Shown here: positions 173 to 34,407 of the stretch, piece by piece | Layout: each line of letters begins with the position of its first letter | How positions within the stretch are numbered: the stretch's first letter is position 1 | Source of the DNA: Alphaproteobacteria bacterium | GTDB taxonomy: Bacteria > Pseudomonadota > Alphaproteobacteria > Micavibrionales > Micavibrionaceae | Direction of reading: 5' to 3' | Length of the DNA stretch: 38,139 nt | NCBI GenBank assembly: GCA_009929775.1 | Contig: RZZS01000020.1 | Span: 1-38,139, forward strand | Program-made: the position numbers and the translations under genes | Notes under the pieces: model-generated | The model's database searches: none | Seen by the model: only the letters and a program-made list of their open reading frames with translations | What the model was told of the DNA's origin: nothing

Positions 173-694
173 TCAATCCGGCGTGATTTTAAGCCGGAGA
201 CCGGCCGAAAAAATGACCCGCCAGGCCTCCAGCTTCTCCTCGAACCGCATGGCGGCGTGCGCGGGGCTTGTGGAGGGCAGGCGGGTGAGGGTCAGGTCGT
301 GTTCGCCGCACGTTGAAAGCACGAACGTCCGAAAAGCCTGCTCCGCCTTGCCGCCGTTGAAAAAGATATGGCGGATGCGCGGGTTTTCCCGGAACAGCGT
401 CTCGAAGTCGTTGGCGTTTTCCTCGCGGATGGACGAGTCGAGGCTTCCGGTCCGCACGCAACTGTGCAGCACGTCCCAGAGCGAAATCCCGGCGGCGTTC
501 AGGCGGGCAAGACGCTCCTCATACGAAACCTCGCGCCCCGCGCCGATGAGTGCGCCCATGATCGGCCAGAACTGGTTTCTCGGGTGCGCGTAGTATTCGT
601 TCGCAGTGAGCGAAGCCTCGCCCGGAATGCTTCCCAGAACGAGCACGGAGCCGTCCCGTGAAAGGGCGGGAGGAAAACTGAAGACGCGGGTCAT
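173..694 (-). CDS. DNA-deoxyinosine (hypoxanthine/uracil) glycosylase, UDG superfamily
   Basis: This 173-residue protein is a family-6-type uracil-DNA-glycosylase superfamily member, expected to remove hypoxanthine (deaminated adenine) from DNA and so start base excision repair in the cytoplasm. The first active-site loop is GSIPGEAS (residues 21-28), followed by YYAHPRNQFW (34-43), whose Asn-40 is in the expected catalytic neighbourhood. The second loop is LPSTSPAHA (139-147). The reading frame stays open upstream to 865, but that part overlaps the divergent gene at 807 and does not resemble the family. The ATG at 692-694 gives the usual family N-terminus (MTRVFSFPPAL) and length. It is divergently arranged with the epimerase/VKOR gene, about 110 bases away. 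Confidence 0.87.
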   Translation of the reverse strand: MTRVFSFPPALSRDGSVLVLGSIPGEASLTANEYYAHPRNQFWPIMGALIGAGREVSYEERLARLNAAGISLWDVLHSCVRTGSLDSSIREENANDFETLFRENPRIRHIFFNGGKAEQAFRTFVLSTCGEHDLTLTRLPSTSPAHAAMRFEEKLEAWRVIFSAGLRLKITPD

Positions 695-743
695 GGGCGA
701 ACTGTACCAGCCGCGCGCGCGGGGATCGACCGAAATAACGACG

Positions 744-769
744 GGAACCCTACGGAGTCCCGCCTCGTT
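744..769 (+). promoter_or_regulatory. Consensus EcfG (general stress sigma factor) promoter
   Basis: GGAAC (744-748) and CGTT (766-769) are separated by exactly 17 bases. This matches the published alphaproteobacterial EcfG/SigT promoter pattern GGAAC-N16/17-CGTT. A transcript would begin near 776, about 30 bases before the ATG at 807. This places the epimerase/VKOR gene, and probably the overlapping antiporter, under general stress control. The call comes from pattern and position only. Confidence 0.6.
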
Positions 770-806
770 GACCAGACTCGATTGCGGAATAACAAAGACA
801 CGCGAT

Positions 807-3290
807 ATGACCGAGACTGAAAAACCGCTCGTCATCGTGACGGGCGCATCCGGCAACATCGGCAAGGCGCTGTGCCGCTCGCTGGAAGGCGACTACCTCG
901 TAGTCGGCATGGATATCCGGCAGGTCGAGGGTGTCGACGCAAGCATCGAATGCGATCTGACGTGGGAGGAGTCCGTCCGGAACGCCTTTGCGCAGGTGCG
1001 GTCGCATTTTGGCGGGACCGTCGCCGCCGTCGTCCATCTGGCGGCGTATTTCGATTTCACCGGCGAAGAGCATCCGCTTTACGAAACGGTCAATGTCGAG
1101 GGAACGCGCCGTTTGCTGAAAGCGTTGCAGGATTTCACGGTCGAGCGGTTCGTCTATTCGAGCACCATGCTCGTCCACGAACCGGCGGCTCCGGGCGAGG
1201 TGATTACAGAGGACTCGCCCGTCAAACCCGGCTGGGCCTATCCGCGCTCGAAAGCGCGGGCGGAAGACGTCGTCCGCAATGAACACGGGGTCATTTCCTA
1301 TACGATCCTGCGGCTTGCCGGGCTGTATGACGACGAAACGGCCGTGCCGACGCTCTCGCAGCAGATTGCGCGGATCTACGAGCGGGATTTTAAAAGCCTC
1401 CTCTACGCGGGCGACCTTGAGGCCGGGCAGGCTTTCATCCATCAGGACGACATGATCGGGCTTTTCCGGTGCGTCGTCGAGCGGCGGGGCGACCTTCCAC
1501 CGAACGATATCATGCTCGCGGGCGGCGGCGAGGTCATGGGATATCAGGCGATGCAGGACCGGATCGGTGGCCTGATTTTCGGCGAGGAATGGGGTACGAT
1601 CAATCTTCCCAGGCCTGTCGCCAAAGCAGGCGCGTGGGCCGAGGACCGCGGCGAGCCGGTCATACCCGATGCAATCGACAAGGGCGAGCGGCCATTTATC
1701 AAGCCGTTCATGATCGACCTCGCCTCCGACCACTACGCGCTTGACATCAGCAGGGCGAAGACGCAGCTGGGCTGGATGCCCCGGCACCGGATTGCCGACG
1801 ATCTCGCTGTTCTGATCGCCAATCTCAAAAAAGACCCGGCTGCGTGGTACGCAAAGAACAAAATCACGCCGCCTGACTGGGTCGCGGGCGCGGCGGAGAA
1901 AGACGCCCGTCCGGACGAAATGCGCACGCATTTCGAGCGCGAATACCGCCGCCGTCACCAGCAGTTTCTCTGGGCGCACTTTCTCAATATGGGCATGGGG
2001 CTCTGGTTGCTGGTCGCCCCGGCTACCCTGAGCTACGAATCGCCTTTCATGGTCTGGAGCGATATTGCCGCGGGCGTGTTGCTGTTGATCTTCTCGGCCC
2101 TGAGCCTTTCGTGGCGGCTTTCGCTCGCGCGCTGGGCGGCGGGGGCGGTGGGGCTCTGGCTGCTCTCCGCGCCGCTGGTCTTCTGGGCGCCGACGGCGGA
2201 GGCCTATCTGAACGGCACGCTGGTCGGCATGATCGTCATGGGCCTTGCGATTATGACGCGTCCGACGCCCGGCGTCTCGCCGCTTGCGGCCGAAACCGGG
2301 CCGACCGTCCCGCCGGGCTGGAGCTTTTCGCCTTCGGGCTGGTTCCAGCGCGCCCCGATCATCATGCTGGCTTTCCTCGGCTTTTTCATTTCCCGCTATA
2401 TGTGCGCCTACCAGCTCGGCCACATCGACGCAGTATGGGAGCCGTTCTTCGCGGGCGCGAAGGACGATCCGCAAAACGGCACGGAAGAAATCATCACCTC
2501 GAGCGTCTCGGAGGCATGGCCGGTGCCCGACGCAGGCCTCGGCGCGATGACCTACGCGCTCGAGATCCTGACCGGTTTCATCGGCGGCACGGCCCGCTGG
2601 CGGACCATCCCGTGGCTGGTCATGCTGTTCGGGGTCATGATCGTGCCGCTTGGCGTCGTGTCGATCTTCTTTATCATCATCCAGCCGATCATGCTCGGTA
2701 CGTGGTGCTCGCTGTGCCTGATCGCGGCCGCCGCGATGCTGATCCAGATTCCGTATTCGGTCGACGAACTGGTGGCCACGAGCGAATTTCTCTATCGTCG
2801 CAAGAAGAAAGGCCGCTCCGTCCTGCGCACGTTCTTTCTCGGCGATACGGACGACGACAATCCAGAGCAGGACCGCAAGGAAAAGGAAAAAGAGGACAAT
2901 TTCGAGCAGTCGCCGCTCGCGATTGTTAAAAATATGTGGAGCGGCGGGGTAACGGTTCCGTGGAACCTGATGCTGTGCGTTCCGATCGGCGTCTGGCTGA
3001 TGTTCACGCGCCTGACGATCGGGGCGGAAGGGCTGATGGCCGATACCGACCATCTGATCGGCTCGCTCGTCCTGACCGTCGTGGTGACCGCGACGGCGGA
3101 ATCGGTGCGGGCGGTTCGCTTCCTGCTCGTTCCGCTCGGGGCGGCGTTGATGGTCGTGCCGTTCACCACTGAAGTGACGGCAGAATCGATGGCCTCGAGC
3201 CTGATCTGCGGCGCGCTGCTGATCGCCCTGAGTTTCCGGAAAGGGAAAATCGGCAATTCCTACGGCGTCTGGGAGCGGTTCATTGTTTGA
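807..3290 (+). CDS. Fusion of NAD-dependent epimerase, SPW-repeat membrane domain and VKOR-type disulfide domain
   Basis: This 827-residue protein has three recognisable parts. Residues 1 to about 330 form an extended-SDR/epimerase domain with the Rossmann motif GASGNIG near residue 13. About 385-490 is a membrane segment of SPW-repeat type. About 505-660 is a vitamin-K-epoxide-reductase-like domain with SRYMCAYQLGHID and a CSLC redox pair (Cys-634 and Cys-637). A charged cytoplasmic-looking linker and further membrane helices follow to the end. VKOR domains reoxidise thiol-disulfide partners, so a role in quinone-linked disulfide chemistry is likely. What the epimerase acts on is unknown. 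ATG 807 was chosen because family similarity begins there (MTETEKPLVIVTGASG), although the frame is open from 606. The stop overlaps the next gene by 8 bases, so the pair is probably translationally coupled. Confidence 0.85.
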   Translation: MTETEKPLVIVTGASGNIGKALCRSLEGDYLVVGMDIRQVEGVDASIECDLTWEESVRNAFAQVRSHFGGTVAAVVHLAAYFDFTGEEHPLYETVNVEGTRRLLKALQDFTVERFVYSSTMLVHEPAAPGEVITEDSPVKPGWAYPRSKARAEDVVRNEHGVISYTILRLAGLYDDETAVPTLSQQIARIYERDFKSLLYAGDLEAGQAFIHQDDMIGLFRCVVERRGDLPPNDIMLAGGGEVMGYQAMQDRIGGLIFGEEWGTINLPRPVAKAGAWAEDRGEPVIPDAIDKGERPFIKPFMIDLASDHYALDISRAKTQLGWMPRHRIADDLAVLIANLKKDPAAWYAKNKITPPDWVAGAAEKDARPDEMRTHFEREYRRRHQQFLWAHFLNMGMGLWLLVAPATLSYESPFMVWSDIAAGVLLLIFSALSLSWRLSLARWAAGAVGLWLLSAPLVFWAPTAEAYLNGTLVGMIVMGLAIMTRPTPGVSPLAAETGPTVPPGWSFSPSGWFQRAPIIMLAFLGFFISRYMCAYQLGHIDAVWEPFFAGAKDDPQNGTEEIITSSVSEAWPVPDAGLGAMTYALEILTGFIGGTARWRTIPWLVMLFGVMIVPLGVVSIFFIIIQPIMLGTWCSLCLIAAAAMLIQIPYSVDELVATSEFLYRRKKKGRSVLRTFFLGDTDDDNPEQDRKEKEKEDNFEQSPLAIVKNMWSGGVTVPWNLMLCVPIGVWLMFTRLTIGAEGLMADTDHLIGSLVLTVVVTATAESVRAVRFLLVPLGAALMVVPFTTEVTAESMASSLICGALLIALSFRKGKIGNSYGVWERFIV

Positions 3291-4595: not shown

Positions 4596-6203
4596 ATGCT
4601 CAAAACATTAAAATCAACCCTGCTGCTGGGCGCGTCGGTTGCCGCGGTGTCAATGGCTTTGCCGTCGGCGGCTGCGATTGCTGCGGATACGGACGTAGAC
4701 AACGCGTCCGTAACGCGTTCGCTCAATGGTAATTCGGAAGTGACGCGCGATTCCGACAACGACGATGTCGATATCGCCTCGAACAACACCCTCAACGCCA
4801 GCGACGACGACACGACCACGACCAACAACAGCGATGATGACGATGTCGATATCGCGTCCAACAACGACTTCACTGATAACAGCGAAGACAATGACGACGT
4901 CGATGTTGCGTCGAACAACACGCTGAACAACAGCGATGACGACACCACCACGACCAACAACAGTGACGATGACGATGTCGACATTGCGTCCAACAACACG
5001 TTGACGGACAACAGCGAGGACAACGACACGGCAACGTTCAACGCCAGCGACGACGATGTCAATCAGGACAACGACGATGTTGACATTGCGTCCAACAACA
5101 CGACGAACACCACAGCGAATGCCAGTGATGACGATGACGTTGACATTGCGTCGAACAACACGTTGACGGACAACAGCGAGGACAACGACACGGCGACCTT
5201 CAGCGCCAGTGACGACGACGATGTTGATATCGCCTCGAACAACACCGCCAACGCGAGTGACGACGATACGACAACGACGACGACCACCACCACGGCAAAC
5301 GCCAGTGATGACGACGACGTTGATATCGCGTCGAACAACACGTTGACGGACAACAGTCAGGACAACGACACGGCGACCTTCAATGCCAGTGACGACGACG
5401 ACCTCGACATTGCGTCCAACAACACCAACACGGCCACTGACAACAGTCAGGACAATGACGATGTTGATGTTGCCTCGAACAATACGTTGAGCAACAGCGA
5501 CGACGATGATGTCGATATCGCGTCCAACAACACGGCGAACGCCAGCGATGACGACACGACCACTACTACCACTACTACCACTACGACGGCGAATGCCAGT
5601 GACGATGACGATGTCGACATCGCGTCCAACAACACGCTGACGGACAACAGCCAGGACAACGATGTTGCTCAGGACAACGACACGACGACAGCGGCGTCCT
5701 ACAATACCGATAACCGTCAGGACAACGACGTTGCCCAGGACAATGATGACGTTGACATCGCGTCCAACAACACGTTGACGGATAACAGCGAGGACAACGA
5801 CGTGGCGCAAGATAACGACACGACCGGGTCCTACAATACCGACAACAGCGAGGATAACGACGATGTCGATATTGCCTCCAACAACACGACTGATGTCGAC
5901 AACTCCAATCAGGGAAACGACAACCGGAGCTACGAGGTCGAAGTCAATCTTTCTGAGGACGAAAACTTCGCGACTGCGTCGTTCGGCGATAGCGAACTGG
6001 TGACGTCGTCCATCCTTGGCGCTACCGTTGCAAACGCGACCGTCAACTTCGGTGCCGGTCGGAACAACATCGGCGGCAATGTGGTTCAGGACAACGCCTT
6101 CCGCGGAGCCACAGGCATCAATGCTGTAAACCAGAACTCGGGTATCAACTCGAATACCCAGCAGGCGATTACAGTTAACGCCAACATTGGCGATATGCCC
6201 TAA
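4596..6203 (+). CDS. Exported Asp/Asn-rich repeat protein, candidate major subunit of a Fap-like amyloid
   Basis: This is a 535-residue, extremely acidic, low-complexity exported protein. Residues 1 to about 33 form a Sec signal peptide ending in an AAAIAAD-type site. From about residue 55 to 425 there are 14 imperfect copies of a unit centred on D-[VL]-D-[IV]-A-S-N-N, joined by Asn/Ser/Thr/Asp linkers that include threonine runs of 9 and 11. The repeat part has almost no aromatic residues and no Cys. The last 90 residues are different: a mixed-composition segment with AFRGAT (501-506) and a terminal motif Q-N-S-G-x-N-x3-Q (from 513) ending VNANI. That motif recurs in the next small protein and, more loosely, in the 173-residue protein. 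Together with the neighbouring C39 protease and FapF-like porin, this suggests an amyloid subunit exported to the cell surface, though no sequence match to known FapC could be tested. ATG 4596 follows ATAGGAG; the open frame begins 27 bases earlier without such a site. Confidence 0.72.
   Translation: MLKTLKSTLLLGASVAAVSMALPSAAAIAADTDVDNASVTRSLNGNSEVTRDSDNDDVDIASNNTLNASDDDTTTTNNSDDDDVDIASNNDFTDNSEDNDDVDVASNNTLNNSDDDTTTTNNSDDDDVDIASNNTLTDNSEDNDTATFNASDDDVNQDNDDVDIASNNTTNTTANASDDDDVDIASNNTLTDNSEDNDTATFSASDDDDVDIASNNTANASDDDTTTTTTTTTANASDDDDVDIASNNTLTDNSQDNDTATFNASDDDDLDIASNNTNTATDNSQDNDDVDVASNNTLSNSDDDDVDIASNNTANASDDDTTTTTTTTTTTANASDDDDVDIASNNTLTDNSQDNDVAQDNDTTTAASYNTDNRQDNDVAQDNDDVDIASNNTLTDNSEDNDVAQDNDTTGSYNTDNSEDNDDVDIASNNTTDVDNSNQGNDNRSYEVEVNLSEDENFATASFGDSELVTSSILGATVANATVNFGAGRNNIGGNVVQDNAFRGATGINAVNQNSGINSNTQQAITVNANIGDMP
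4755..5895 (+). repeat. Degenerate in-frame coding repeats (14 copies)
   Basis: The DNA encodes the DVDIASNN units at irregular spacing, with synonymous differences between copies such as gatgtcgatatcgc and gatgttgacattgc. Two ACN runs at about 5264-5290 and 5560-5592 encode threonine tracts. The synonymous drift implies selection on the peptide rather than recent duplication alone. The near-identical tracts could still allow copy-number change. Confidence 0.85.
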
Positions 6204-6218
6204 CCGTATGACGCACGT

Positions 6219-6251
6219 GGGAGGAGGATTTTCCGAAAAGGTCCTCCTCCC
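6219..6251 (+). promoter_or_regulatory. Perfect 10-bp intercistronic stem-loop after the major subunit gene
   Basis: GGGAGGAGGA (6219-6228) is the exact reverse complement of TCCTCCTCCC (6242-6251). The loop itself can pair TTTTC with GAAAA. No T-run follows, so it is not a classical terminator. It lies 16 bases after the stop of the repeat-protein gene and 52 bases before the next start. It could protect the 3' end of a processed subunit transcript or lower expression of the downstream genes. Confidence 0.7.
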
Positions 6252-6302
6252 GGTGCGATGCTCACGGATACATGAAAACAGTGCAATTTGACGGGTGCGA
6301 CG

Positions 6303-6659
6303 ATGTTACGGAACATTTTTTTCAGTCTTTCGATTGCGACATTCGCTTTTTCAGTTGCGGTGCTTCCGGTCGAGGCTTTGGCAGAAGAGTCTGATGGCTT
6401 TTCTTTCGACGAGAGACTGGTCGTAGATAGCGAGAGCCTTGGCGAGATGCGCGGCACAGCGCTGAGCCCGGAGGTTCTGGGCATTGTGGTATTCGACGCT
6501 ATCTCGGCGAACAATACCAGCAACGGAACAGTCTCCGGCGGCAATGTTATCGACGCAGGCGCCTTTTCGCATTCGTCCGGTCTGTCGACGATCATCCAGA
6601 ACAGCGGGAACAACGTCCTGATCCAGTCGGCAACGATTGTGAACCTGAATATAGACTAG
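6303..6659 (+). CDS. Small exported Fap-like protein (candidate minor subunit or nucleator)
   Basis: This 118-residue protein has a signal peptide (1 to about 27, ending VEALA). It then carries ESLGEMRG (44-51), which resembles a double-glycine leader motif, and a C-terminal half rich in Asn, Ser, Gly and Ile. Its last 20 residues align without gaps to the end of the large repeat protein: Q-N-S-G-x-N-x3-Q (99-108) ending V-N-L-N-I. By analogy with FapB or CsgB it could nucleate or cap the fibre, which is inference. The ATG at 6303 lacks a strong ribosome binding site, and the frame also has a TTG at 6288. It sits directly after the stem-loop and before the C39 protease, in the same operon. 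Confidence 0.7.
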   Translation: MLRNIFFSLSIATFAFSVAVLPVEALAEESDGFSFDERLVVDSESLGEMRGTALSPEVLGIVVFDAISANNTSNGTVSGGNVIDAGAFSHSSGLSTIIQNSGNNVLIQSATIVNLNID

Positions 6660-6714
6660 GCGGACGTATCCGCCGACGGAAGCTCGTTTATTCTGATTGG
6701 CAAAGGCATTGTTC

Positions 6715-7410
6715 ATGAAGACGTTAATTTGCAGTTTCGTTGTGTTGACCGGCCTGATGCTTTGCGGTCTGGCGCAGGCCAACGATTTTGGGCTCGTGGG
6801 CGGAAACCGTGCCTTCTCGCTGCAGGTCACGAGCTTCAGGGCGCAGCGTTTCGAATCTGTCATACCCCAGCACTACGACTACAGCTGCGGTTCGGCGGCG
6901 CTGGCGACGCTTTTGAAATACCACTACGACATCCCGGTGACCGAGCAGGAAGTTCTCGACGCGATGTATCAGGCCGGCGATCAGGAAAAAATCAGGACGC
7001 AGGGATTTTCCCTTCTGGACATGCGGCGGTATCTCGAAACGATGGAATTGAGGGCGGACGGATTTCAGGTCGACCTCGACAAGGTGAAAGCGGCGGGAAT
7101 TCCCGGAATTGTTCTGATAAACACCAATGGTTACATGCATTTCGTCGTGCTGAAAGGCATCAGCCTGACTCACGTTCTTCTGGGCGATCCGGCGCTCGGC
7201 ACGCGCAAGCTTGCGCACGGGGACTTTCAGAAAATGTGGAACGGAATCTTTTTCGTCATCCGAAACCAGACGGACCTCTCGCGCATGAGCTTCGATTACG
7301 AGGATGGGTGGGACGGGCGGCGCGCCGCCTTGTTCAGGACGGCGTTGACGAGTCAGACGCTGTCTTCGATCGGCCTCCACAGTGCGATGGCTCCGGGCAT
7401 TCATTATTGA
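6715..7410 (+). CDS. Periplasmic C39-family cysteine protease, FapD-like
   Basis: This is a 231-residue exported peptidase. A signal peptide (1 to about 22, ending LAQA) precedes a C39 domain. The expected catalytic set is present: oxyanion Gln-52 and nucleophile Cys-58 within QHYDYSCGSAALATLL, His-142 in GYMHFVVLKG, and Asp-158 in GDPALG. Stand-alone exported C39 proteases of this kind are the FapD component of Fap amyloid operons. The C39 family in general cuts after double-glycine leaders, and both neighbouring small proteins carry such a motif. ATG 6715 is preceded by AAAGG, while an in-frame TTG at 6697 is less likely. The next gene starts 8 bases after its stop, so the two are co-transcribed. 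Confidence 0.85.
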   Translation: MKTLICSFVVLTGLMLCGLAQANDFGLVGGNRAFSLQVTSFRAQRFESVIPQHYDYSCGSAALATLLKYHYDIPVTEQEVLDAMYQAGDQEKIRTQGFSLLDMRRYLETMELRADGFQVDLDKVKAAGIPGIVLINTNGYMHFVVLKGISLTHVLLGDPALGTRKLAHGDFQKMWNGIFFVIRNQTDLSRMSFDYEDGWDGRRAALFRTALTSQTLSSIGLHSAMAPGIHY

Positions 7411-7417
7411 GGGTTTA

Positions 7418-7939
7418 ATGAAGAATCGTCCTCTCAAACCTTTTCTGCTCGGCCTGCTCGCCGTCTTTGTTATGGACGCGCGCACGCAGGCTTGCGCTTT
7501 CCATGAGCCGGTGGCCTTCAAGACGACGAGCGCCGCGTTTCCCGCGAGCGGATTGCCCATCGGGACAGAAGAGCTCGATAGCATGCGCGGAGGGTTCGTC
7601 ACCAGCAACGGCATGGTCATCGACTTCGCCTTCTCGGCCAACACGCTGGTCGACGGCGAACTCATCAATCAAGTCTTTCTCGACAGCGCCGCGCTCGGCG
7701 CGGACGCGGGCGCGCTCCGGAGCATCATCCAGCTCGGCGAGGGAAATGCGGCGTTCCGTGGCGCGACTGACATGAGCATACTTCCGAGCGTTCTCTCGGT
7801 CGTGCAGAACAATCTCAACGACCTGACGATCCAGCAGCTCAACGTTCTGGACCTCTCGGTTCAGAACATGGGCAATTTTACGCGACGTTCGATTGTTCCC
7901 GAAATGGCGTTCCAGAGCACGATGGGACTGGCGCCGTAA
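7418..7939 (+). CDS. Exported Fap-like accessory protein with a double-glycine-type motif
   Basis: This 173-residue exported protein has an N-terminal hydrophobic segment (about 6-19), then EELDSMRGG (51-59). That fits the double-glycine leader pattern E-L-x-x-[IM]-x-G-G. It continues with a Gly/Ala/Asn/Gln-rich region containing AFRGAT (112-117), which is also found at residues 501-506 of the large repeat protein, and a looser copy of the shared motif (Q130 to Q139). These links tie it to the same assembly system. By operon position next to the C39 protease it could correspond to FapE or a second subunit, but no one-to-one match can be claimed. ATG 7418 follows GAGGG. A CAF motif near the predicted cleavage site (residues 26-28) leaves lipoprotein status open. 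Confidence 0.68.
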   Translation: MKNRPLKPFLLGLLAVFVMDARTQACAFHEPVAFKTTSAAFPASGLPIGTEELDSMRGGFVTSNGMVIDFAFSANTLVDGELINQVFLDSAALGADAGALRSIIQLGEGNAAFRGATDMSILPSVLSVVQNNLNDLTIQQLNVLDLSVQNMGNFTRRSIVPEMAFQSTMGLAP

Positions 7940-8039
7940 AGCCATACAGCATTCTTGCCTTCAGGTTGCCGGTGTCCCCCGACCACGTCTCGTTGCGGCG
8001 AAGGCTGGATGATGTACGAGGCGTGTTTCCGGCAGCCCG

Positions 8040-9269
8040 CTAAAACAAGTCAAACTTCACCGGGACTCGCAGGGTGACTTGCATGTCCGGGGCGTCGTCC
8101 GTGACGCCGGCGGCGACGTTGAAGTTCAGGCCCACCCGCTCATTGATCTGATAGGAATAACCGAAGCTCGTCGAGCCTACCTGTAGCACGTCGGAGTTCG
8201 GGAGCGTCACGCCGTTCTGCTCGGTTTCGAGCACAACGCTGTGGCTGTATCCAAGGCTGAACGACGTTTTGTCATTGATGGAAAAGCCCATGCCGAGCCC
8301 GAAATTGATGCTGTCGCCGGGATCGATGTCCCCATTGCCGCCGCCGACATCGTCCTCGATGTTCCAGGTGTAGCCGACATTAGTGAAAAACACCGCCGGG
8401 TCGCTCGGGTAGAGCATCGTAAGGCTTGGTTGGAGGGCGTGAAAACCTGAACCGGTTGGAGTTTCAGCCTGTAGGCCGGTTGCCGGATCGATCGGCACGT
8501 CGAACGGTCCTTCGCCGGTGGTGCTCTTGTAGCGCAGATTGCCGATGAAGAACGGCCAGCCGCCGGCTCCGTTGTTGATCTGGTAATGGGCGGCCATCTC
8601 GATATCGCCGAGGCCGTTGCCGTCGACATTGCTGATGACGTCCGTGGTGGCTCCGACTCCGATCGGGCGCGAAACGGAAGAATCATCGCGCCAGAGGTAA
8701 GGGACCGAGAATTCGACCTCGAGCCGGTTCGTCAGACCGGCACGCGCCGTCAGGGAAGCGGTCACGATATCCCGGTCGATGTCGGAAATGTTGAACAGGC
8801 CCACATTGATCGCCGGGATGAGGGTATACCCCTCGATAGCAACCCGCAGAGCGGACGAACGGCTGTATTGCAGTGACGGCTCAAGCACAATGCGCCCTTT
8901 CGGTAGCAAAACGCCGCCGCTGCTGACGGCGACGGCGGGAACTTCGGGCTTTTGCTGGCGCTTGCTCTTGCGGTCGGTGCCAACTTCCTGCGGTCCGCGC
9001 CCGCTCATCATCGCGAGGTGTTTCGGTTCCTGCTCCTGCCCCATTTCCTCATCAAGCAGAGCCTCGGCGCGCAGAAGCGCCTCGTCGAGTTCCCGTTCTT
9101 TCTTCGTGAGGGATTCCTTTTGCGCGCGGAGTTCCTCGACAAGTCTCTCAACGTCCGCGGTCGGTGAGGATGCGCTCTCGCGGGCGTACGAGAATCCCGG
9201 AGAAAACGCCAGGATCGAAAAAGCGCTGGCGGCAAGGGAATAGAGCCACAAGGATCGTTTGCTGTTCAT
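8040..9269 (-). CDS. FapF-like outer-membrane secretion channel with N-terminal coiled coil
   Basis: This is a 409-residue outer-membrane protein. It has a signal peptide (1 to about 29), a Glu/Leu/Lys heptad-like coiled coil at about 37-78, a Lys/Pro-rich linker, and from about 118 a beta-barrel opened by GVLLPKGRIVLEPSLQYS with alternating amphipathic strands to a C-terminal Phe (VKFDLF). This order (coiled-coil trimerisation segment, linker, roughly 12-strand barrel) is that of FapF, the trimeric pore that exports Fap amyloid subunits. It converges on the subunit/protease genes, with a 100-base gap that holds no obvious terminator, so it is transcribed separately. A sigma70-like promoter lies upstream at 9307-9334. 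Confidence 0.78.
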   Translation of the reverse strand: MNSKRSLWLYSLAASAFSILAFSPGFSYARESASSPTADVERLVEELRAQKESLTKKERELDEALLRAEALLDEEMGQEQEPKHLAMMSGRGPQEVGTDRKSKRQQKPEVPAVAVSSGGVLLPKGRIVLEPSLQYSRSSALRVAIEGYTLIPAINVGLFNISDIDRDIVTASLTARAGLTNRLEVEFSVPYLWRDDSSVSRPIGVGATTDVISNVDGNGLGDIEMAAHYQINNGAGGWPFFIGNLRYKSTTGEGPFDVPIDPATGLQAETPTGSGFHALQPSLTMLYPSDPAVFFTNVGYTWNIEDDVGGGNGDIDPGDSINFGLGMGFSINDKTSFSLGYSHSVVLETEQNGVTLPNSDVLQVGSTSFGYSYQINERVGLNFNVAAGVTDDAPDMQVTLRVPVKFDLF

Positions 9270-32921: not shown

Positions 32922-33683
32922 GTGGCCATAATCCACATGGCAAAGTTGCAGACGATGGATCTTGTCGAGTTCATCCACGCCTCACACGATTGCTGCAGTT
33001 CCCAGGAGCTGACAGACAAGTTCCTTGCCTATCTCTCCCGTTACGGGCTGGACCGGTTTGTCATGAGCGATATGGCTCACGATTCAACGGTTCAGAAGGA
33101 GAACCACCATGGCCTGCTTGTCAATTATCCGGACGAGTGGATGAAATACTATGTGGAGAATCATTACATCGACCACGATCCCGTCTATCAGACGGCGCTC
33201 CGATCCCTGCGACCGTTTACGTGGGAGGAAGTCCAGAATCGCCAGAACGTGACACGCACCGGCATGCGGGTGATGCGCGAAGCCCGCGAGTGCAGGCTCT
33301 ATGACGGCATCGGCCTGTCGATTCATCTGCCTCTTGGACAGGTCATCGGCATGGGATTTGCCGCTTCTGAAAGGGGGGTTTCGCTGGACAGGCGTACGCT
33401 GAGTGAAATATATGCGGCGGCGCACCAGTTCTTCGTCGCTTTTCAGGATATTTCGGGGATCAATTCTCTCGATGGTCAAAAGCACGAGCTGACCAAGCGG
33501 GAGCGCGAGGTTCTCCTTTGGCTCTCCCGCGGAAAGACGAAAGGCGACATCGCCGATATTTGTTGCATGAGTGAATCGGGCGTCAAACGGCACTGTGAGC
33601 GTATTTTTGCAAAGCTGAACGTGCTCAACACCGCTCAGGCCGTCGCCCAGGCACTTCGCATGGGCCTTATTAACCCTTTCTAA
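32922..33683 (+). CDS. LuxR-family acyl-homoserine-lactone-responsive regulator
   Basis: This is a 253-residue quorum-sensing regulator with an autoinducer-binding domain (about 15-175) and a LuxR-type HTH (about 188-250). With an offset of 16 from TraR, every invariant residue is present: Trp-73, Tyr-77, Asp-86, Pro-87, Trp-101 and Gly-129 in the ligand pocket, and Glu-194, Leu-198 and Gly-204 in the HTH. It should therefore bind an AHL-type signal normally. The start is uncertain: GTG 32922, ATG 32937 or ATG 32955, none with a good ribosome binding site; the residue numbers use 32922. It is followed by a hairpin and then the synthase gene. Confidence 0.92.
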   Translation: MAIIHMAKLQTMDLVEFIHASHDCCSSQELTDKFLAYLSRYGLDRFVMSDMAHDSTVQKENHHGLLVNYPDEWMKYYVENHYIDHDPVYQTALRSLRPFTWEEVQNRQNVTRTGMRVMREARECRLYDGIGLSIHLPLGQVIGMGFAASERGVSLDRRTLSEIYAAAHQFFVAFQDISGINSLDGQKHELTKREREVLLWLSRGKTKGDIADICCMSESGVKRHCERIFAKLNVLNTAQAVAQALRMGLINPF

Positions 33684-33700
33684 TCTAAAAAGAATTTAGA
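33684..33700. promoter_or_regulatory. Small dyad directly after luxR
   Basis: TCTAAA (33684-33689) and TTTAGA (33695-33700) are perfect inverted arms with a 5-base spacer, starting one base after the luxR stop. It could be part of the luxI control region or a weak structure at the luxR 3' end. Confidence 0.3.
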
Positions 33701-33704
33701 GAAC

Positions 33705-33725
33705 GTGGCCACCTGGCCACTTTTT
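33705..33725 (+). terminator. Rho-independent terminator of luxR, possibly also a luxI operator
   Basis: GTGGCC (33705-33710) and GGCCAC (33715-33720) form a 6-bp GC-rich stem with a 4-base loop, followed directly by TTTTT (33721-33725). This is a textbook intrinsic terminator. The same symmetry (16 bp if the loop edges are counted) lies 46 bases before the luxI start, so a regulator-binding role is also possible. Confidence 0.7.
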
Positions 33726-33771
33726 CTGTTGTTTCGGCCTGCCTATTCTCCTCGGAAGGGAGGGCAGCTTC

Positions 33772-34407
33772 ATGATTGTCGCCGTTTCGATCGAGAATGC
33801 GCATGTGTTCGGAGATATTCTTCCGTCAATTCTTCGTCTGAGGCATCAGGGCTTCAAGGAGCGCCAGAACTATGCCGTGCCCTCGTTCCACGGGATGGAG
33901 TACGATGCCTACGATACGCCCGCGACCACGTATCTTGCCTGGCGCGACAAAGACGGCTCTGTGCGGGGCTGTACACGCCTGTTCCCCACGACTCTTCCCT
34001 ACATGATCGAGGAAATCTGGCCCGGTCTGGTCACGCGCGAATCGCTTCCCAAAGCGCCGGACGTCTGGGAAGCCTCGCGATTCGTGATCGACCGGACGCT
34101 TCCGGTCGAGGAGCGGCGGCGCGTTCATGGCGAACTGCTGTGCTCGTTTCAGGAATTCGGGCTGTCATGCGGCATTCGCTGGATGATCGGAGTTATGACG
34201 CCGCCCATCTGGCGCGCGGTCTTCGTTAACGCAGGGTGGCCCATCGAGTTCCTCGGCAACACGCAGGAACTTGCGCCGCGAGAGCGGGTTTCCGCTGGTC
34301 GCATGGTCATTTCCGACCGGATCCTCGCGGGCCTGAGAAAAACGTTTTCAATTCGCGGAGCAGTGCTCGACGCCTCCGCCTACCAATCGGACCGGATGTA
34401 CGCGTAA
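33772..34407 (+). CDS. Acyl-homoserine-lactone synthase (LuxI family)
   Basis: This 211-residue enzyme makes the quorum-sensing signal from S-adenosylmethionine and an acyl donor. Conserved positions match LuxI/EsaI numbering: Arg-24, Phe-28, Asp-45, Asp-48, Arg-69, Glu-100 and Arg-103. The usually invariant Trp-34 is Tyr here. The stretch YDTPATTYL, then TRLFPTTLPYMIEEIWPGL and VWEASRFVID, resembles the RpaI/BjaI/BraI subgroup, which takes acyl-CoA rather than acyl-ACP. A strong ribosome binding site (GGGAGG) precedes the ATG. The downstream 2-oxoacid dehydrogenase genes could supply that acyl-CoA. Confidence 0.88.
   Translation: MIVAVSIENAHVFGDILPSILRLRHQGFKERQNYAVPSFHGMEYDAYDTPATTYLAWRDKDGSVRGCTRLFPTTLPYMIEEIWPGLVTRESLPKAPDVWEASRFVIDRTLPVEERRRVHGELLCSFQEFGLSCGIRWMIGVMTPPIWRAVFVNAGWPIEFLGNTQELAPRERVSAGRMVISDRILAGLRKTFSIRGAVLDASAYQSDRMYA

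Follow-up and report, generated by a model that had tools for sequence, protein, structure and literature searches.

Cysteine proteases of the C39 family are known as the peptidase domains of ATP-binding cassette (ABC) transporters and, as separate exported enzymes, from two systems with an outer-membrane porin: Fap (fapABCDEF), with the protease FapD and the porin FapF, and the Fil 'putative pilus' system (FilA-FilC), in which an exported C39 protease (FilB) stands beside a FapF-like porin (FilC). The C39 leader consensus is LSxxELxxIxGG, with hydrophobic residues at -12, -7 and -4 and glycines at -2/-1. Canonical FapB and FapC almost always contain three imperfect repeats, and some true Fap operons, a minority, have no FapA. 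The export of FapC needs the active-site cysteine of FapD, and FapE peptides from the first ~70 residues are not seen in cell lysates (Rouse et al. 2017, PMC5557850). Both that study and a 2018 review (PMC6173800) treat the substrate of FapD and its recognition sequence as undecided, and a review of December 2025 names FapE and FapF as what FapD 'is thought to' process (PMC12822426). Here we analyse a five-gene locus at positions 4596-9269 of a stretch of 38,139 nucleotides (hereafter, the window), which is contig RZZS01000020.1 (assembly GCA_009929775.1, positions 1 to 38,139) of an alphaproteobacterium of the Micavibrionaceae. The locus holds together the genes of an exported acidic repeat protein (REP), a small exported protein (SM1), a C39 protease, a second exported protein (SM2) and a porin. 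We read it, with moderate confidence, as a putative Fap-like system for secretion across the outer membrane and for fibre assembly, from a sister clade that we abbreviate as 'Fap-II'. Its most informative feature is a set of double-glycine leaders, which an earlier note on this DNA, made without database searches, had missed.

Protease, porin and gene order

The protease (Pfam Peptidase_C39, E 1.6e-22) has a complete catalytic set (Q52, C58, H142 and D158, invariant in 15 homologues), as the earlier note had read it, and shares its fold and catalytic residues with the C39 peptidase-containing ABC transporters (6mpz, E 1.3e-8). Among the NCBIfam models, FapD (NF058616) matches it with E 6.8e-49 and 166 bits, below the equivalog cut-off of 330, and FilB with 112.6 bits (cut-off 475); the porin is matched by FapF with E 1.2e-41 and 143 bits, again below the equivalog cut-off (700), and by FilC with 40.4 bits (cut-off 630). 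The window proteins accordingly score far lower against the Fil than against the Fap models. Two outcomes named in the earlier note as refuting a Fap relationship did not occur. The porin is not an unrelated transporter, its residues 122-405 matching the barrel of the solved FapF structure (5o65, E 7.8e-29), and the protease is retained in homologous loci, as is, in nearly all of them, the porin, which lies within the fetched DNA in 86 of 96. Judged by sequence, the protease and the porin are homologues of FapD and FapF, as had been proposed. A single-sequence model of the porin is confident only for helix 36-76, where the coiled coil of FapF sits, and for that reason was not taken into a fold search.

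All five genes were found where the earlier note had placed them. REP, SM1, C39 and SM2 lie on the plus strand in this order, and the porin gene lies convergent with this operon on the minus strand. Across the 96 loci of the clade, SM1 precedes the protease in 92 and SM2 follows it in 95, and the 86 porins are divided half and half between the two strands. The recurrence of the gene set in about 95 other loci excludes a chance association at the window locus.

Double-glycine-type leaders in SM2 and SM1

Fixed patterns and a profile built by expectation-maximization were used to score the leaders. The SM2 proteins of 95 loci share the motif LxxxRGGF, with leucine (91%) or methionine (7%) at -7, arginine at -3 (95%), glycine at -2 (97%) and at -1 (93%), and phenylalanine at +1 (83%); the pattern [LM]xxxRGG is found in 94% of these proteins, as compared with 3.3% of other open reading frames (ORFs) and 1.2% of shuffled sequences. 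In 64 SM2 proteins that are only 15-25% identical to that of the window, no column but R57 is invariant, and five others (L53, G58, G59, G65 and N131) are conserved at 90% or more. The window leader, IGTEELDSMRGG, fits the C39 consensus at all positions except -11, the residues at -12 and -4 being conservative replacements, and the AlphaFold2 (AF2) model of SM2, with a mean predicted local distance difference test score (pLDDT) of 72, has a short helix (residues 50-56) directly before the RGGF motif. The motif of SM1 is looser (-7, leucine 83% and methionine or phenylalanine 15%; -2, glycine 87%; -1, glycine 47% or arginine 33%), and the window copy, VDSESLGEMRGT, which has RGT in place of RGG, fits the consensus in part. 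A loose six-position leader score was also tried and rejected, as it separated SM1 poorly from the background. Taken with the position of the protease gene, the motifs suggest that SM1 and SM2 carry double-glycine-type tags for the neighbouring C39 protease, with a predicted cut directly after the motif. Hydrophobic signal cores precede the leader motif (median 31-34 residues), so that Sec export would come first and the C39 cut would be periplasmic.

Canonical FapE, which is encoded between fapD and fapF, carries ELxDxELxxxRG[RK][YF], in which R38 and G39 do not vary among 11 diverse FapE proteins. In hhalign comparisons of SM2 with alignments of FapE (N-terminal part), the two families match with a probability of 94.1 (E 1.2e-7) and RGGF is placed on RGRY; a FapE model gives weak matches in just 2 of the 64 SM2 proteins. 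By position and by hhalign, SM2 is the probable counterpart of FapE. What persists in FapE counterparts at identities as low as 15% is the set of residues of a C39 leader, which is the comparison that had been missing for the substrate of FapD, and the predicted exact cut site in FapE would lie after RG or RG[RK]. Processing of FapE was already suspected; what appears to be new here is the conserved recognition sequence and the predicted site. No description of a leader motif in FapE, or of the present clade, was found in the open literature, subscription papers and preprints being outside the search. The main value of the locus is that comparison within its clade makes the question of the FapD substrate directly testable.

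The leaders resemble those of bacteriocin-type peptides, which are the usual substrates of C39 proteases, and SM1 and SM2 might by this token be cut to bioactive, bacteriocin- or signal-like peptides that leave through the porin. We regard such peptide maturation as very improbable, given that no ABC exporter adjoins the locus, that Sec signals precede the leaders, that the mature parts are long (~60-115 residues) and of FapB/FapE-type sequence, and that the genes are nearly always accompanied by that of a large repeat protein.

Leader-like sequences were also observed in proteins of the other two systems. Three FapA genes (L032:8062-8499, L033:7300-7755 and L034:8340-8792, given as locus and positions) contain ELSDxD[FI]xx[VI]xSG, a degenerate double-glycine leader that may mark a pseudo-substrate of FapD, and that is less clear in more distant FapA genes. 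Relatives of FilA start with a similar leader, MDDSSLSSVTGQAG, and the FilA-type genes L061:6197-6637, L063:7195-7632 and L064:7360-8250 have an initial leader-like [ML]xDxxLxx[VA]TGQAG in the register of C39 leaders.

The repeat protein and its C-terminal module

REP, of 535 residues, has a signal peptide and exactly 14 D[VL]D[VI]ASNN units, the number given in the earlier note, which are spaced irregularly at 16-46 residues. Aspartate makes up 21% of the protein, and its acidic region, with a net charge of about -22 per 100 residues, exceeds in acidity that of any other among 85 REP homologues. The region before the C-terminal module is polar and rich in D/N/S/T in 42 of the 85 and glycine-rich in 39, and REP is hypervariable between loci in both sequence and composition.

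A profile built from the last 62 residues of REP proteins, with the window excluded, matches the window protein with 29.9 bits at residues 492-541 of the long REP frame (483-532 of the 535-residue protein). Applied to canonical Fap loci, the same profile has its best matches in FapB genes wherever FapB was identified (top E 2.6e-7). FapB repeats score ~24.5 against the module, compared with a maximum of 14 for column-shuffled controls; FapC-only repeats match the REP C-terminus weakly (probability 2.3), and the link came from the FapB repeats. The C-termini of REP and SM1 are homologous to each other (probability 94.7). These comparisons indicate that a FapB-type repeat is kept once at the C-terminus of REP. 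REP, SM1 and SM2 have no match to a curated family (Pfam, NCBIfam), the NCBIfam FapB and FapC models included, or to a Fil model.

That note had also supposed that the acidic repeats replace those of FapC and may need divalent cations, in what would be an ordinary divergent Fap operon with the acidic repeats as amyloid core. The adjacent homologues of FapD, FapF and FapE and the high aspartate content would agree with such an arrangement, but the clade is split from Fap in the C39 tree (see below), glycine-rich sequence takes the place of the acidic repeats in homologous loci that retain the C-terminal module, and the irregular spacing of the units makes them a poor fit to a regular cross-beta repeat. 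No evidence supporting a cation requirement emerged, and REP contains no RTX-type calcium repeats. This explanation is improbable in our view, and the supposed replacement of FapC repeats does not hold. Because of the hypervariability in front of a conserved C-terminal module, the acidic region of REP is more probably a spacer or a region for display than a replacement for the amyloid core.

Hypervariability, irregular spacing, strong negative charge and the presence of one remote FapB-type module would also suit a FapF-class system with a non-amyloid matrix or adhesin protein as its exported product, in which REP would be a disordered charged or glycine-rich surface polymer, SM1 and SM2 would serve as export pilots and no cross-beta fibre would form. 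The homology of the REP and SM1 C-termini to FapB repeats argues against it, as does the REP gene upstream of position 5558 in locus L072 (a Rhodospirillales bacterium), which holds several tandem NQNN(I)xSGINSAQQ copies, a multi-copy form of the module as expected of a self-assembling unit. A purely non-amyloid polymer is accordingly an unlikely alternative, albeit one with some claim to attention.

Proposed export and assembly

In the Fap-like system that we favour, REP, SM1, SM2 and the protease, all with visible signal sequences, would cross the inner membrane by Sec. Both SM2 and SM1 bear a short amphipathic leader, with L/V/I at -12, L at -7, R at -3, G at -2, and G or a variant at -1, which the protease would recognise in the periplasm and after which it would cut, as the motif and the gene neighbourhood suggest; this cut may license export. 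Mature SM2 would presumably then set off export through the FapF-type porin, the role that has been proposed for FapE, after which REP and SM1 would leave by the same porin and could assemble through their common FapB-type C-terminal repeat. The acidic repeats of REP would form a charged, probably disordered region outside the fibre core.

Several observations weigh against this scheme. The second glycine is not universal (RGT in the window SM1, RG[RK] in canonical FapE), and a fold search with the SM2 model found no significant match in the PDB. REP has a single repeat module where FapB and FapC almost always have three, and about half of the porins of the clade are without a clear coiled coil by a crude test. 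The Fap proteins themselves have been said to lack canonical C39 sequences, and the target of FapD has been called unclear (Rouse et al. 2017, PMC5557850). The same study remarked on a GG in the linker of the FapF porin; as a candidate cleavage site in the window porin, the corresponding SSGG before the barrel was rejected, since it is not conserved in the homologous porins read.

A tentative generalization, which we consider rather doubtful, is that a single rule applies to all FapF-class systems (Fap, the present clade and Fil), whereby pilot subunits (FapE/SM2, SM1, FilA) lose a double-glycine-type leader, located behind the Sec signal, to an exported C39 protease, the cut licenses export, and FapA (LSDxDFxxVxSG) would be an uncut pseudo-substrate that occupies the protease.

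A sister group of the Fap export system

When 399 Pseudomonadota genomes were searched with the FapD model and the neighbourhoods were then read, three kinds of C39-plus-porin locus emerged, namely canonical Fap, Fil and a third kind that includes the window. Canonical Fap is present in 20 of these genomes (by score; neighbourhoods were read for 13), the third kind in 15 and both in 2. A tree of 67 C39 proteins, in which the window clade comprises 48 rows, places the third kind in one group (support 98/96) with the window inside and canonical Fap and Fil outside. In a scan of named genomes, at least 589 places encode a C39 relative of any kind, and the best 80 of these belong to Alpha-, Beta- and Gammaproteobacteria and to Geobacterales, their loci having the third-kind layout. 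Within the family and order of the window genome, the protease was found in none of 57 other genomes (1 of 58 with the window genome).

The window locus is apparently a member of a widespread and hitherto undescribed sister group of the Pseudomonas Fap export system; by the membership tests made, it is a Fap variant outside Fap proper. The earlier description of a divergent Fap locus stands insofar as homologues of FapD and FapF and a probable counterpart of FapE are present, and has to be amended in that the protease falls in a clade of its own and the two systems occur together in at least two genomes. Like Fap, the locus combines an exported C39 protease, an outer-membrane barrel with a predicted N-terminal helix, a probable FapE counterpart whose leader ends in RG at an equal place, and a FapB-type repeat in exported subunits. 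Unlike Fap, its protease is not among the canonical FapD proteins, REP and SM1 each contain a single remote repeat instead of three, the SM2 leader has a true GG and SM1 also bears a leader, the subunit is mostly hypervariable acidic or glycine-rich sequence, and the porin gene of the clade occurs on either strand. No candidate for the chaperone FapA is present among the window ORFs around the locus, in agreement with the earlier note. Fil differs in its other substrates, its extra partner genes and its separate branch in the C39 tree. C39 ABC transporters share the leader consensus, whereas the window protease stands by itself, is exported by Sec and has no ABC transporter, and the leaders lie behind Sec signal peptides.

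This second lineage is about as common as Fap in the Pseudomonadota sample, and its major subunit evolves freely, contrary to the view of Fap as evolutionarily fixed. The clade also supplies exported polymers of acidic or glycine-rich composition.

Two variations in layout were observed within the clade. In L046:5988-11370 the REP-SM1-C39-SM2 unit is tandemly duplicated, with one porin at the end. A sigma-54-type activator (GExGxGKE motif) lies near 39 of the 96 loci (e.g., L045:9795-11120, L047:3846-5222, L056:3216-4622) and adjoins the porin in several of them; none is found beside the window porin.

Features and setting of the locus

Table 1. Positions of the genes and motifs of the locus in the window, with the basis of each assignment.
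Feature	Position	Strand	Basis
REP, exported acidic repeat protein, 535 residues, in the FapC (major-subunit) position	4596..6203	+	First gene of the conserved REP-SM1-C39-SM2 order
Acidic low-complexity region of REP, 14 D[VL]D[VI]ASNN units, probable hypervariable spacer/display region	4764..5885	+	Unit spacing, comparison of REP homologues
C-terminal module of REP, single FapB-type imperfect repeat, GINAVNQNSGINSNTQQ	6042..6191	+	Profile built without the window, 29.9 bits
SM1, small exported protein, 118 residues, with leader motif and C-terminal module as in REP	6303..6659	+	
Putative double-glycine-type leader motif of SM1, VDSESLGEMRGT, with T for the second G	6423..6458	+	Frequencies in the SM1 family
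Sec-exported C39 cysteine protease, FapD homologue, Q52/C58/H142/D158	6715..7410	+	Profile matches, tree
SM2, exported protein, 173 residues, probable FapE counterpart with double-glycine leader	7418..7939	+	Alignment, hhalign, AF2 model
Double-glycine leader motif of SM2, IGTEELDSMRGG then F; predicted cleavage after G59	7559..7594	+	Conservation, AF2 helix 50-56
FapF-type outer-membrane porin, 409 residues	8040..9269	-	NCBIfam, match to solved FapF barrel
Helix of the porin (residues 36-76), predicted to form a periplasmic coiled coil	9042..9164	-	pLDDT ~87-91 over residues 41-70

A gene flanking the locus is 68% identical to genes of genomes of the same family; the contig is therefore taken as native to its genome, and bin contamination was rejected. 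A scan for promoters and terminators gave no signal above shuffled sequence. Elsewhere in the window, by ORF reading, a LuxR-type regulator is followed by a LuxI-type autoinducer synthase (32922-34407), and a single long ORF (606-3290) seems to encode a fusion of an NAD-dependent epimerase with a membrane portion similar to vitamin K epoxide reductase.

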